DNA from: Acidobacteriota bacterium
Lineage (GTDB): Bacteria; Acidobacteriota; Terriglobia; Acidiferrales; UBA7541
Direction of reading: 5' to 3'
Length of the DNA stretch: 56,437 nucleotides
Assembly: GCA_003225295.1 (NCBI GenBank)
Contig: QHYZ01000108.1
Span: 1 to 56,437, forward strand
The translations under genes and the position numbers were made by a program. A model generated the notes under the pieces. It was not told the DNA's origin and did not search any database. It saw only the letters and a program-made list of their open reading frames with translations. Positions 49,828 to 54,360 of the stretch are shown here, piece by piece. Positions within the stretch are counted from its first letter, which is position 1. Every line of letters begins with the position of its first letter.

Positions 49828-51102
49828 ATGAGCAGATTGGCGTTGACCGTTATCGCACTCTGTACGATGACTTTGGTGATTCCCGCGAATATCGTGTGCG
49901 CGGATGAGGTGCTGGATTGGAACGCGCATGCGGCAAAGGCGATTGTGACCGTAGGCGGCCAGGTGCCACCACGCGCCTTGATCAGACTCGCGATGGTCCA
50001 CTTGGCGATCTACGACGCGGTGAATGCGATCGAGGGAGCGCCATTTGAGGGCTATGCCAGCGTCCCGGCTGTGGATCGCCCCGCCTCAGAAGAAGCGGCT
50101 ACAGCTGCCGCAGCCCACGATGTCCTGGTGGCGTTGTTCCCCGCGCAGGTGGCTGATCTTGACGCAAAGTACGCGGCATCGCTCGCAGCACTACCTGACG
50201 GCAGCGCCAAGGCAAATGGAATCGTTGTCGGCCAGCAGGCGGCGAGCGCCATCTTGAGCAAGCGTGCTGAGGACGGTCGGGATGCCTCTGTGATCTACAC
50301 GCCGGGCTCGGGTCCGGGCATTTGGGTGCCGACGCCGCCGGCGTTTCTCGCCGCGCTGGCTCCGGAAACCCCGTTCGTGCAGCCCTTTGCCCTAAACTCC
50401 GCGTCCCAGTTCCGTCCTGATCCGCCATTTAGTCTCACCAGCGAAGATTGGGCGCGCGACTATAACGAGATCAAGGCGCTCGGTCCTGCCGTCGGAAGCC
50501 TCCGAACGCCAGAACAGACCGACATCGCCCGGTTCTGGAGCGACAATCCGCCCTTGCAGTGGAATCGGGCCTGGCGCGCGTTGTCCGTGGCCAAAAACCT
50601 CGGTTTGGCCGACAATGCCCGCTACTTCGCCATGCTCGCGACGGCATCGGCCGATGCACTGATCGCTTGCTGGGACGCGAAGTATTTCTACAATTTTTGG
50701 CGGCCCGTTACCGCCATTCGAGCAGGCGATACCGACGGCAACTCGGAAACCGCGCCGGATCCGGCGTGGATAGGACTCATCATCACGCCGAACCATCCCG
50801 AGTACCCCGCAGCCCACAGCTGCTTCAGCGGCGCTTCGACTGAAACCCTGAATTATCTGTTTGGCACAGACGAGGTCGGTTTTTCGATGGACAGCAACGT
50901 TGCGGGGGTCGTCAGCCCTGTCCGAACTTATGATCGCCTCTCAGACGCGCTGGAGGAAGTGCTCGACGCCCGGATTTATGGCGGAATGCACTACAGAAAC
51001 TCGACCCGAATCGGCGCGCACGTGGGAAAACAAGTGTCCAGGTTTACGACAAGGCACTTCTTCCGCCCCGCTAAGCATCACGGGGACAAAACGAACGAAT
51101 AG
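49828..51102 (+). CDS. vanadium-dependent haloperoxidase/PAP2-type protein, exported
   Basis: A 424-residue secreted protein of the vanadium haloperoxidase/acid phosphatase superfamily. A signal peptide ends near residue 25. The vanadate-site segments are KYFYNFWRPVTAIR (Lys and Arg), HPEYPAAHSCFSG (in place of the usual PSGH) and DARIYGGMHYRNS, whose His would bind vanadate. It could oxidise halides or act as a phosphatase. GAGGAGG is 6 bases before the ATG. A clear hairpin terminator follows. The regulator gene is divergent, 126 bases away. Confidence 0.87.
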   Translation: MSRLALTVIALCTMTLVIPANIVCADEVLDWNAHAAKAIVTVGGQVPPRALIRLAMVHLAIYDAVNAIEGAPFEGYASVPAVDRPASEEAATAAAAHDVLVALFPAQVADLDAKYAASLAALPDGSAKANGIVVGQQAASAILSKRAEDGRDASVIYTPGSGPGIWVPTPPAFLAALAPETPFVQPFALNSASQFRPDPPFSLTSEDWARDYNEIKALGPAVGSLRTPEQTDIARFWSDNPPLQWNRAWRALSVAKNLGLADNARYFAMLATASADALIACWDAKYFYNFWRPVTAIRAGDTDGNSETAPDPAWIGLIITPNHPEYPAAHSCFSGASTETLNYLFGTDEVGFSMDSNVAGVVSPVRTYDRLSDALEEVLDARIYGGMHYRNSTRIGAHVGKQVSRFTTRHFFRPAKHHGDKTNE

Positions 51103-51160: not shown

Positions 51161-51987
51161 TCAGCTTCTCGCCAGGAACTGCGGCATCGCTGCCACGAAC
51201 CGCTCCTCCACACAGGGGGGAGATTCGCACCAAAGGAGTTTCGCATTTGCAACTCTCGCAGAGTGGTGTCATTATCTTGCTGTTATATGAAAGCAGATCG
51301 AGCGTTAGCCAAGCTCTCCACCTTGGCTCTCCAAAATCAGGCCCTCCGAAACGCCCTTTCTTGTACTCAATCTGTACTCAACTTCAGAGTGGATTTCGAC
51401 ACATAATCCGTTGATGACATAAATTGATCGCTCGCTCATTGCTACATTGATACTTCTCCAGACGACAAGCTCCTACGAGGGAATTTAATGAATGCACCGC
51501 GTCCCGTGACGAGCCACTGGGAGATTGCCTTTCCTATTTGCCGATCGTGAAAATTTCTATCGAGGCGTCCGTACAGGTAATCCTTAGTGCGGCGATCTTT
51601 GTTTCTCTACGCCTGTTATACCACTCTCTCAAAGAATCAGAGTGCCGCTCTTTAATGTATTCTGTGAGGCTGTCCACGATTTGTGGATGCACTCAATTTT
51701 GATTCCGGTCAGACGCGCCACAAACGCTTGCATGCCGTCATTCTATAGGATTAACGTAGGCCCGGAGAGGCTGCGTGTCCTCCATCCCATGTGAGGGCGA
51801 CACCTGAGGCACGCGGCTGATTCCTGACTCACTCCAGGTTGGTGCGTCTCTGCTAGCACTAAACAGCGACACCAGACTTAGTGCTCTATCTGGCTTTTCG
51901 TGCGAGAATGGGTCAAACCAGCCCCCTGCTCCTTCTGCAGGCGATTTCACTCGACCGCCTTTGTCAAAGCGCGGCCAAGGGTGTCCT
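51161..51987. other. long intergenic stretch, no firm gene
   Basis: About 830 bases. A possible 39-residue frame (51287-51406, MKADRALAKLSTLALQNQAL...) has no ribosome site, though a TTGCAA/CATTAT promoter-like pair lies just upstream. Base composition is lower in GC than the rest of the window, as in acquired DNA. No RNA or repeat was recognised. Confidence 0.4.
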
Positions 51988-53214
51988 ATGACAGATGACT
52001 GGAAGAAACTCGAAGGCCAGGTTGTCAATGATAAACTCCCCCTGCAAAAGCTTTTGGGTGGCACAAGCTATAGTGCGGTCTTCCAAACGCAATCCCCCAA
52101 CCCGCAAGCAAAAAATATTGCGATTAAGTTTATACGTTCTGGTGCGAATGCAGACTCGCAGGCCTCGCTCTTATACCGCGCTTCGAAGCTCAGTCACCCC
52201 AATCTCCTTGGCCTGATGCCTGGCGGCCCCTGCCAGCTTGCGGGCATGGATTTAGTTTACTTGGTGATGAAATACGCTGAGGAAGACCTCGGAGGAGTTC
52301 TCCGCGATCATCCACTCACCGCGGAAAAAACTCGCGAACTGCTCGGGCTGCTTCTCGATGCCCTTGGCCATATCCATAGCAAAGGCTTCGTGCACTCTCA
52401 CATCAAACCTTCAAACATTCTGTCTGTCGGCAATCAACTCAAGCTGTCGAGCGATGCCGTTCTCCCTCTCGGCGAGCCACGCCCGGCCTACCGGCCACTT
52501 GACGTTTATGACGCTCCCGAGGCAACCTCCGCACTGGTTGCCGCCTCAAGTGACGTTTGGTCCCTGGGTGTGACGTTAGTCGAGCTGCTTACGCAGCACC
52601 CTCCCGTTTCATCGCCAGAGAATCAATCCGATCCCGTCATTCCATCCACGATTCCTCAGCCTTTCCTCGACATCGCGCGCCAGTGCTTGCGACCGGATCC
52701 TTTGCACCGCTGGACCACGGCTCAAATCGCGGATTGTCTCAACCCCGCTCCTGTCCAGCTTGCAACACCGGACGCGGCCGGCAGCGCTCGATCGTCGACT
52801 CCCACGCCGACCGCCGCATCGGACGTGACTGCAAATGCCGGAAAGACAGCGCCCGCCCAGGTTGCGGCGCCCGAGATATCAGGAGCCGCTGGAAAGACCG
52901 CTCCCTCTCCGATTGCCGCACGGCAACCAGCGGCCGCAAAAGCAATGCAAGCCGAATCGGAAATGTGGCAGGACATCCACTACACTTGGATCGTTCTCTG
53001 CAAGAACTACTTGTTTCATATGCGGCAGAATCTTTTCTTTAGGCATAGAATCCCCCTCGCGTACACAGATCCCTTTTCCCCCGTTCCTGATCTCGAAGGT
53101 CCTTTCAAGGTCCAGTGTGATGACTGCGGCAAAACCTATGTTTACAAACCTTCCAACGTGATGAGATACGAGGGAGAAGTTCCTAAGTTCACGACGCATC
53201 CGCTCTTTTGGTAA
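51988..53214 (+). CDS. protein kinase-like protein, probable pseudokinase, with C-terminal Cys-pair domain
   Basis: A 408-residue protein. Residues 15-255 have the Hanks-kinase layout: glycine loop LLGGTSYSAVF (22-32), Lys47 in IAIKF, and a clear C-lobe DAPEATS...SSDVWSLGVTLVELL. The catalytic HRD is HSH (136-138), though Lys140 and Asn143 of the loop remain; the DFG region reads LSSDAV; no Glu is seen at the expected helix C position. It is thus likely inactive as a kinase. An Ala/Pro-rich linker (260-325) leads to a C-terminal domain with QCDDCGKTYVYKPSNV. No membrane segment. ATG 51988 is chosen over the TTG at 51961. Confidence 0.8.
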   Translation: MTDDWKKLEGQVVNDKLPLQKLLGGTSYSAVFQTQSPNPQAKNIAIKFIRSGANADSQASLLYRASKLSHPNLLGLMPGGPCQLAGMDLVYLVMKYAEEDLGGVLRDHPLTAEKTRELLGLLLDALGHIHSKGFVHSHIKPSNILSVGNQLKLSSDAVLPLGEPRPAYRPLDVYDAPEATSALVAASSDVWSLGVTLVELLTQHPPVSSPENQSDPVIPSTIPQPFLDIARQCLRPDPLHRWTTAQIADCLNPAPVQLATPDAAGSARSSTPTPTAASDVTANAGKTAPAQVAAPEISGAAGKTAPSPIAARQPAAAKAMQAESEMWQDIHYTWIVLCKNYLFHMRQNLFFRHRIPLAYTDPFSPVPDLEGPFKVQCDDCGKTYVYKPSNVMRYEGEVPKFTTHPLFW

Positions 53215-53296
53215 GTTCGAGCGGCAGCGCCCTTTGGTTTCCCTTTGATCGGCGGCCGCGTCGCTCTAGCTTCCACCCACGGCGAGTCTCCATCCC

Positions 53297-53848
53297 TTAG
53301 TCTTTCGGGATGCTTTTCCATATCCAGGTCCCATTTTCTGTTTTCTCCGTCCCCATTGGGATCTTTTCGGATTGGTGCCACCACAGCCCTCCAGACCTAA
53401 ATGAGACGACAATGAACATTTCCGCGTGGATTTCGGCCGTTTCGCTGCTGCCCAGCTTGGTGACGATGGCTCGTCCACACGGGACTGTCAATTTCTGCTT
53501 AGGAGACAAGATTTCAGCGCGGGACTCAGGGAAATAGAACGTTGCCGACCCTACAAAATGCCTGTTTCCAGGAGGAAGTTCGTCAACGCGCAAGATCTCG
53601 CAGCCAGCTTTCACGTCGTAAACAGGCCACGAGGCTTGATTTGACAGAGAGAAGACAGTTCCCATCAGGTCGTTAGAACGCAAAGAACCAGAAACATCTG
53701 CGGATATCTTGGGCAGATTCGTTAGGACAAAGCCGGTCACGATCAGGATTACCAAAACTATCCCTATAAGCCATCCAAAGATTCGTAATAGCACTCGCAT
53801 TAGACGCCTTTTTGCCGTGGGCTGCGGGTCCTGCATTTTTATATCCAT
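53297..53848 (-). CDS. membrane-anchored protein of unknown function, 183 residues
   Basis: One N-terminal membrane segment (IFGWLIGIVLVILIVTGFVL) followed by a beta-rich periplasmic domain (VFSLSNQASWPVYDVKAGCE). No known family recognised. GGAGGA lies 7 bases before the ATG at 53848. Convergent with the pseudokinase gene, which is 82 bases away. Confidence 0.75.
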   Translation of the reverse strand: MDIKMQDPQPTAKRRLMRVLLRIFGWLIGIVLVILIVTGFVLTNLPKISADVSGSLRSNDLMGTVFSLSNQASWPVYDVKAGCEILRVDELPPGNRHFVGSATFYFPESRAEILSPKQKLTVPCGRAIVTKLGSSETAEIHAEMFIVVSFRSGGLWWHQSEKIPMGTEKTENGTWIWKSIPKD

Positions 53849-53949
53849 CTGAGTCCTCCGCTACGCTGTGCGGAAATTTCTCACTTCATGCCGCTGCCTT
53901 TCCGGTATCCCCACTACGGATCACGGCTCCAAGACCAACATCGGCAGCT

Positions 53950-54360
53950 CTAGGCGCTTTCGCGCTGCACACGCGGCTCAATGCGTGAACGGTTTTGAGT
54001 GAACGTCCCGCCGAGTACGACAAGCGGTATGAGAGTTCCTAGAAACACAAGGTGATACCACCCTGGAAATCTCGCCCAAAGCTGAACGTGTACCGGGACG
54101 AATGCCGCGAGCAGGACTCCGCCGAGCACCCACAATACGCGAGCGCTCGACGGCGCCACAGCCCTTGTGGCAGCGCCCGCGGCCAGCGATGCAAGAGCAC
54201 CGAGCGCGAGGCGGGCCGCCATCATCCCGTGCGTGAACACCATCTGCGGCTCGGCCGCAGCGTAGCCTTCGAGGGCGAGTCGCAGGACGCGGTTTAGAAG
54301 GGACGCGACCAGCACCCAAACCACAAGCCCCACGATAAACGCGAGAATGGATCGTTTCAT
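53950..54360 (-). CDS. small four-helix membrane protein
   Basis: A 136-residue integral membrane protein with four hydrophobic segments (AFIVGLVVWVLVASLL; LALGALASLAAGAAT; VLWVLGGVLLAAFVPVHV; LVFLGTLIPLVVLGG). No motif assigned. GAGGAAAG precedes the ATG at 54360. A palindromic operator overlies its promoter at 54377-54398, so it is likely controlled by a TetR-type repressor not in view. Confidence 0.78.
   Translation of the reverse strand: MKRSILAFIVGLVVWVLVASLLNRVLRLALEGYAAAEPQMVFTHGMMAARLALGALASLAAGAATRAVAPSSARVLWVLGGVLLAAFVPVHVQLWARFPGWYHLVFLGTLIPLVVLGGTFTQNRSRIEPRVQRESA

Follow-up and report, generated by a model that had tools for sequence, protein, structure and literature searches.

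A kinase-fold protein with a Cys/His domain in place of a membrane anchor as a putative non-catalytic adaptor in Acidobacteriota

Introduction

Bacterial kinase-fold proteins that have lost residues needed for catalysis pose a simple question: what do they do instead? Seven bacterial pseudokinase families are described in a 2025 review (PMC12599244), and their functions are mostly unknown according to the passages of it drawn on here. A gene in a 56,437-nucleotide stretch of DNA (contig QHYZ01000108.1 of the Acidobacteriota bacterium assembly GCA_003225295.1; hereafter the window) raises this question in an unusual form, joining a degraded kinase domain to a small cysteine-containing domain. 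Its parts are as follows.

51988..53214, + strand: whole gene, 408 aa plus stop (ORF calling and translation)
51988..52749, + strand: pseudokinase domain, residues 1-254 (Pfam PF00069 and motif tables of 51 family members)
52750..52971, + strand: Ala/Pro/Thr-rich linker, residues 255-328 (translation)
52972..53211, + strand: C-terminal Cys/His domain, residues 329-408 (alignments of 24 and 26 rows; structure model)

The chosen ATG at 51988 aligns with the starts of near homologues, taken as the ATG or GTG nearest to the match; an alternative TTG at 51961 would lengthen the protein by 9 aa.

A kinase fold with degraded catalytic motifs

A first-pass annotation, made from the letters of the window, had called the kinase fold clear, and residues 21-248 indeed match Pfam Pkinase (PF00069) at E 1.5e-21, with 77.5 bits against a gathering score of 31.7. 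No second domain was found in the protein by the Pfam scan, and the best PDB match of a profile made from 26 family kinase domains was PknB (E 1.1e-24). Alignment also upheld the motif reading of that annotation. The HRD motif is H136-S137-H138, with His138 at the HRD Asp column; the DFG segment is LSSDAV (153-158), with S155 at the DFG Asp column and D156 one residue past it; Leu occupies the helix-C Glu column; and the beta3 Lys (K47), the loop Asn (N143) and the APE Glu are all present. Five other kinases of the same genome, aligned with the family, keep all six residues checked. Having lost both the HRD Asp and the aligned DFG Asp, the window protein is a pseudokinase as the term is defined in the consulted part of PMC12599244, namely a kinase fold in which any of the beta3 Lys, HRD Asp or DFG Asp is lost, absent data showing activity.

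These losses are common to a family, so that the designation as a pseudokinase holds beyond a single sequence. The census comprises 51 members fetched as loci (the window, its paralogue L002, 29 further loci and 20 far regions) and is part only of the family, the class-wide search alone listing 77 places. Across the aligned kinase domains, the window included, the beta3 Lys is found in 45/51, the loop Asn in 45/51 and the APE Glu in 50/51; the helix-C Glu and the aligned DFG Asp are found in none. The HRD Asp column holds His in 26 members, Arg in 19, Asp in 3, Gly in 2 and Cys in 1. An Asp stands one residue after the DFG column in 48/51, which suggests that the metal site may be displaced and not simply lost. 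Lys, Asn and displaced Asp occur jointly in 43/51; of the eight members without the full set, seven belong to the far regions; the Lys is missing from six, and three terminate in SPOR (for L144, SPOR is taken from the sequence and from the count of five). Between the DFG column and APE lie 24 residues in 43/51 and 22-25 in 49/51 (40 in L036 and 8 in L145), compared with 27-36 in the five canonical kinases from the window's genome. None of these 51 members has HRD and DFG both intact, so the window protein is not a lone mutant, and the conservation of HSH among close homologues, which the first-pass annotation had proposed checking, is complete in the seven full-length members that carry the C-terminal domain; the three kinase-only copies have HSH in two cases and HTH in one.

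An alternative interpretation is that the protein is still an enzyme, a kinase-fold transferase with D156 as a displaced metal Asp and another residue as base. All three of Lys, Asn and shifted Asp are retained in 43 members, three have Asp at the HRD position, and pseudokinases with other acquired catalytic functions exist, SidJ and SelO being named in the part of PMC12599244 used here. We nevertheless consider this quite unlikely: the HRD position is mostly His or Arg, no member has the helix-C Glu or the aligned DFG Asp, and of the six members without Lys, five or six fall within a 42-member scan, described below, in which TonB_C or SPOR is found in 41/42. The three HRD-Asp members (L026, L028 and L030) group together in the tree, so retention of this Asp is indistinguishable from its regain.

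The kinase part also draws matches from models of anti-phage defence, as would be expected if the gene belonged to a defence system with a kinase: the PADLOC models mad6 (3.6e-26), MkoA (4.3e-19) and PD-T4-6 (6.7e-19) match, as does NCBIfam MAD6 (E 9.8e-21). We regard this reading as highly improbable, however, since the best stretches of these matches fall in the kinase part, NCBIfam MAD6 scores 73.9, short of its cut-off of 460, and three neighbours in the window are, by Pfam, a haloperoxidase/PAP2-like protein, an AAA/Trans_reg_C regulator and an LCM methyltransferase.

The membrane-anchored parent form

At E 1e-20, a search of 101 relatives gave matches in 41 (within the genus, 31 of 36 genomes), and a kinase-domain profile at E 1e-40 found the family in 66/299 class genomes and 18/106 genera. 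The same threshold applied to a phylum sample yielded 4/297 genomes, all four of the class; these figures describe the distribution within the phylum, with up to eight candidates per genome scored among the matches listed. A Pfam scan (E up to 0.01) of 42 parent-type proteins, which left out the truncated L032 and L037, found TonB_C in 36 and SPOR in five, and in all 42 a simple hydropathy analysis predicted a single transmembrane helix, located beyond the kinase part. By these sequence criteria the usual molecule of this family of soil Acidobacteria is a pseudokinase followed by a linker, one transmembrane helix and then TonB_C or SPOR, and its kinase side is predicted to be cytoplasmic. SPOR replaces TonB_C in L140-L144, from the f7 genomes of one lineage; three of these five members have lost both the beta3 Lys and the loop Asn. 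Paralogue L002, in the same genome as the window, has TonB_C and a transmembrane helix; in the window protein, neither TonB_C (Pfam) nor a transmembrane helix (hydropathy) was found.

The surroundings of the parent form offered no neighbour common across the class at 40 loci, the far ones covering a few kb on each side, which weighs against the adaptor reading proposed below. Gene clusters present in at least 4 of the 40 come from close relatives only; those by the parent loci include one Peptidase_M50 (Pfam) and, named by eye, a DNA glycosylase-like and a dnaX-like cluster.

A Cys/His domain in place of the anchor

The pseudokinase joined at full length to the Cys/His domain occurs in 7/36 genus genomes. 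In a tree from which L037, at a contig end, was omitted, and to which three kinase-only copies were added, the seven full-length and three kinase-only copies form one group with support of 100/100 (bootstrap not fully settled), nested among the parent-type proteins of the genus. In this clade the membrane anchor has probably been exchanged for the Cys/His domain. The kinase-only copies are in three genomes, G017, G018 and G030; in G017 one lies directly upstream of a full-length fused gene (L176 5815-6627 and 6744-8531), forming a tandem.

As the first-pass annotation had it, an Ala/Pro linker is followed by a domain with CDDCGK (residues 377-382); translation confirms this order, the linker being rich in Thr as well. 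From its composition alone the linker is probably disordered. Its low pLDDT is no evidence of disorder, since the full-length model (mean pLDDT 47, pTM 0.28; alignment of 24 rows, 6 full length) is poor across the kinase part too. Structure prediction, which had been proposed as a check, thus failed for the whole protein but gave a model of fair confidence for residues 318-408 (mean pLDDT 81.5, pTM 0.71).

The domain spans about 80 residues. Alignments of 20, 24 and 26 rows were made, from which the broken L057, L060, L063, L064 and L093 were omitted; in the 24-row alignment the invariant residues include Y332, W334, C338, K339, N340, H344, N348, H353, T360, D361, C377, C380, Y386 and H404. 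The first-pass annotation had not recognised the domain, and HMM searches of it alone likewise led to no known function. Nothing reached the Pfam curated cut-off (best Saf4_Yju2, E 0.32), NCBIfam and PADLOC gave no match, and PHROGs gave a single weak one (E 0.011), to a family of unknown function. The PDB profile search gave eS27 at E 0.0057 for the whole sequence, around the CxxC and with no single stretch passing, followed by weaker matches to Rpb12 (0.024) and AgmX (0.36). Foldseek against PDB found nothing at 0.001 (best E 0.97), and a second-look fold search gave ZitP (Z 2.4, rmsd 2.1, 38 aligned) and a tRNA ligase (Z 2.2), both too weak to use. From the conserved Cys and His residues and the weak profile matches, we infer a putative zinc site formed by C338, H344, C377 and C380.

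The domain was found in 17/399 class genomes, in 1/297 genomes of the phylum sample (only the window's own) and at 27 loci in a one-pattern scan of GTDB genome contigs. A viral origin was considered and dropped: 34 viral-contig stretches fit a pattern and none was confirmed. The domain occurs alone, before PilZ, after the pseudokinase and after a hydrophobic stretch (L003; the stretch was read by eye, and hydropathy analysis of a version with a shorter start detected none). In L071 3050-3889 it is joined to PilZ at E 7.3e-9, other such forms being recognised by eye; this fusion is a possible link to cyclic di-GMP signalling.

A membrane partner fused or alongside

Proteins of the clade in G017, G018, G024 and G030 carry, beyond the Cys/His domain, a predicted transmembrane helix followed by another domain, whereas those of the window, G011 and G015 end after the Cys/His domain. 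The window has a convergent gene of similar content next to the pseudokinase gene.

53297..53848, - strand: convergent neighbour gene, 183 aa, with a hydrophobic N-terminal helix and a further domain

Its product is 57-60% identical to the fused extensions of the four genomes; G011 has a separate convergent gene 93% identical to it, and G015 yielded only a fragment of the partner gene, lying on the opposite side of the pseudokinase gene. That the pieces are fused in four genomes and are convergent neighbours in two is our main evidence that the kinase/Cys protein and the membrane part cooperate.

Selection was estimated by simple pairwise counting between the window and five relatives, G030 not included. 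In the five window pairs the kinase part has dN/dS of 0.25-0.29. The C-terminal domain has 0.29-0.30 in the two computable pairs, three being saturated, and the linker has 0.35-0.54 in four of five pairs, the fifth being saturated. As far as sequence comparison goes, these counts show that both the kinase part and the C-terminal domain are under purifying selection. For 53297-53848, the comparison of window and G011 gives dN/dS of 1.03 at a dS of only 0.03, with very few changes, and purifying selection on that gene is therefore unsupported by this value. Both this value and the G015 fragment speak against the proposed cooperation.

Broken pseudokinase/Cys-domain copies, with frame shifts or decayed Cys domains, were observed in two genomes, G018 and G030, at the following places.

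L174 4658-6768: broken copy
L175 4900-5740: broken copy
L093: broken copy

Such remnants invite the interpretation that the window gene arose by duplication of the anchored pseudokinase and, lacking any function itself, is in decay. Kinase-only copies in G017, G018 and G030, the frame-broken copies, the restriction of the full-length form to 7 of the 36 genus genomes and the dN/dS of the neighbour gene all agree with decay. We consider it unlikely, however, because the kinase part and the C-terminal domain are constrained, the linker less so, and seven genomes have an uninterrupted full-length frame.

The locus itself shows an uneven pattern of identity, which extends into the sequence before the gene.

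51878..51987, + strand: upstream stretch, possible promoter or leader, conserved with G011

Between the window and G011 this stretch is identical at 103/110 bases, homology being absent further upstream, and the sequence after the ORF (53226-54090; L177 in G011) is 95.4% identical over 867. The stretch with the ORF is 75.7% identical against 94-95% for the flanks, and the background at the parent-type locus is 80-88%. G011 and G015 show a similar pattern, with 93% for the flank and 79% for the gene. Between G018 and G030 an identity of 89.9% covers the gene and a short piece upstream of it; across the 13.0 and 7.7 kb that were aligned, no other similarity passes E 1e-10. We read these patterns as allele exchange of the coding part together with gene movement; an assembly error in the metagenome bins is an alternative.

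A transposon-like unit with repeated ends was considered and rejected, because neither flank proved to be repeated: a 123-base query around the upstream stretch found one place each in G000 (the window genome) and G011, in 2/36 genus genomes, and a downstream-flank query found G000 and G011 again, the fused extensions in G017, G018, G024 and G030, a fragment in G015, and in G018 one more, weak match. The upstream neighbour at 49828-51102 (+) matches the vanadium chloroperoxidase profile VCPO_2nd at E 4e-6, with PAP2 below cut-off.

Proposed function

We propose that the window protein is a catalytically dead kinase-fold adaptor whose anchor has been swapped, whose membrane part is supplied in trans and which may retain a nucleotide switch, a reading to which we assign a probability of roughly 0.47. 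With the catalytic residues lost and the anchor replaced by a small domain, the protein is most likely a docking platform and not an enzyme, and we infer from this the scaffold role that the first-pass annotation had implied. In the parent form, a non-catalytic counterpart of membrane kinases, the cytoplasmic pseudokinase would read out or control the state of the envelope by binding a partner. In the window paralogue a small docking domain that may bind zinc would have taken the place of the anchor, with the product of 53297-53848 supplying the membrane part in trans and the Cys/His domain docking to this membrane partner. No phosphotransfer would be expected. A nucleotide may still be bound through K47, N143 and the displaced D156 and serve as a conformational switch, and D156 may replace the lost helix-C Glu as the partner of K47, a pairing suggested by likeness to the modelled DYD pseudokinase.

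A broader reading, which we rate as doubtful, is that in Terriglobia, a class of Acidobacteriota in the NCBI taxonomy, the pseudokinase would be an exchangeable cytoplasmic regulator of envelope machines carried on TonB-type or SPOR-type anchors, which in one genus has been freed from its anchor and given a zinc-type docking domain (found also with PilZ) and a membrane subunit in trans (fused elsewhere), its coding sequence being swapped between alleles within nearly constant flanks.

Comparison with known systems

By analogy, the nearest functional analogue is the pseudokinase domain of MviN, a scaffold that recruits an inhibitory protein in cell wall control according to the part of PMC12599244 drawn on. 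That domain and its group, ActPs3, resemble the window family in their non-catalytic kinase fold, shortened activation loop, membrane context and scaffold-type role, as those passages describe them. The activation-loop deletion of ActPs3 has its counterpart in the 24 residues from the DFG column to APE in the window and 42 other members. ActPs3, however, has lost all three motifs and is described there as mainly actinobacterial, whereas the window family keeps the beta3 Lys (in 45/51, the window included) and the loop Asn and was found in Acidobacteria.

The DYD group (PMC12599244, same passages) is similar in lacking the helix-C Glu, in keeping the loop Asn, in having an extra Asp near DFG and in being membrane-associated; in its model the motif Asp pairs with the beta3 residue where the helix-C Glu is absent. 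It differs in having a beta3 Arg and in coming from actinobacteria and firmicutes, whereas the window protein has a beta3 Lys, has lost the HRD Asp and reads L-S-S-D. In the descriptions given by those passages of PMC12599244, ActPs1 has all three catalytic residues substituted, and K47 is kept here; ActPs2 has a beta3 Arg, an HRD Asp changed to Asn and a long activation-loop insertion, and the window protein has K47, H138 and 24 residues; GLW replaces HRD in the group of that name, and the window has HSH; and DLHK keeps the HRD Asp, where the window has H138. The window protein thus falls outside ActPs1, ActPs2, ActPs3, GLW, DYD and DLHK as far as these descriptions define them. CP1 pseudokinases are linked in the same source passages to a COG3899 domain; the Pfam scan found no second domain in the window protein.

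The overall plan of the parent form has better-known counterparts. PknB is an active kinase with PASTA repeats. PknB/PASTA-type kinases resemble the parent form in layout, with a kinase fold in the cytoplasm, then a single transmembrane helix and a C-terminal domain outside. The parent form differs from PknB in its missing catalytic residues and in having TonB_C or SPOR as the outer domain. TonB energy transducers (PF03544) have a transmembrane helix, a Pro/Ala-rich stretch and TonB_C, as the parent form does, but in the latter a pseudokinase precedes the helix, and the window protein itself is without TonB_C. The terms Acidobacteri-, TonB, SPOR and zinc do not occur in the main text of PMC12599244. 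Among the literature matches listed, titles and abstract openings make no mention of a kinase-TonB_C or kinase-SPOR family or of the C-terminal domain, a scope outside which most subscription papers lie. With recurring domain orders, the Lys/Asn/Asp set and envelope-type partners, the family would be a tractable case of how a dead kinase might act at the inner membrane.

Zinc ribbon and knuckle proteins such as eS27, Rpb12 and ZitP show a weak profile or fold likeness to the Cys/His domain. Set against a zinc ribbon, with four ligands and a ribbon fold, the domain has four invariant candidate ligands (C338, H344, C377 and C380 in 24 rows) and weak profile and fold matches; it differs from these proteins in having one CxxC only, the other proposed ligands being a lone Cys and a His. 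As a small uncharacterised module it could merit a family of its own. Homologous genes at L179 3685-5163, L180 7259-8734 and L182 4144-5790, with DUF4382 and DUF5666 in L180 and L182, adjoin two fused pseudokinase/Cys genes and, in the window genome, a gene with a hydrophobic stretch plus the Cys domain. These neighbours hint at the source from which the Cys domain was recruited.
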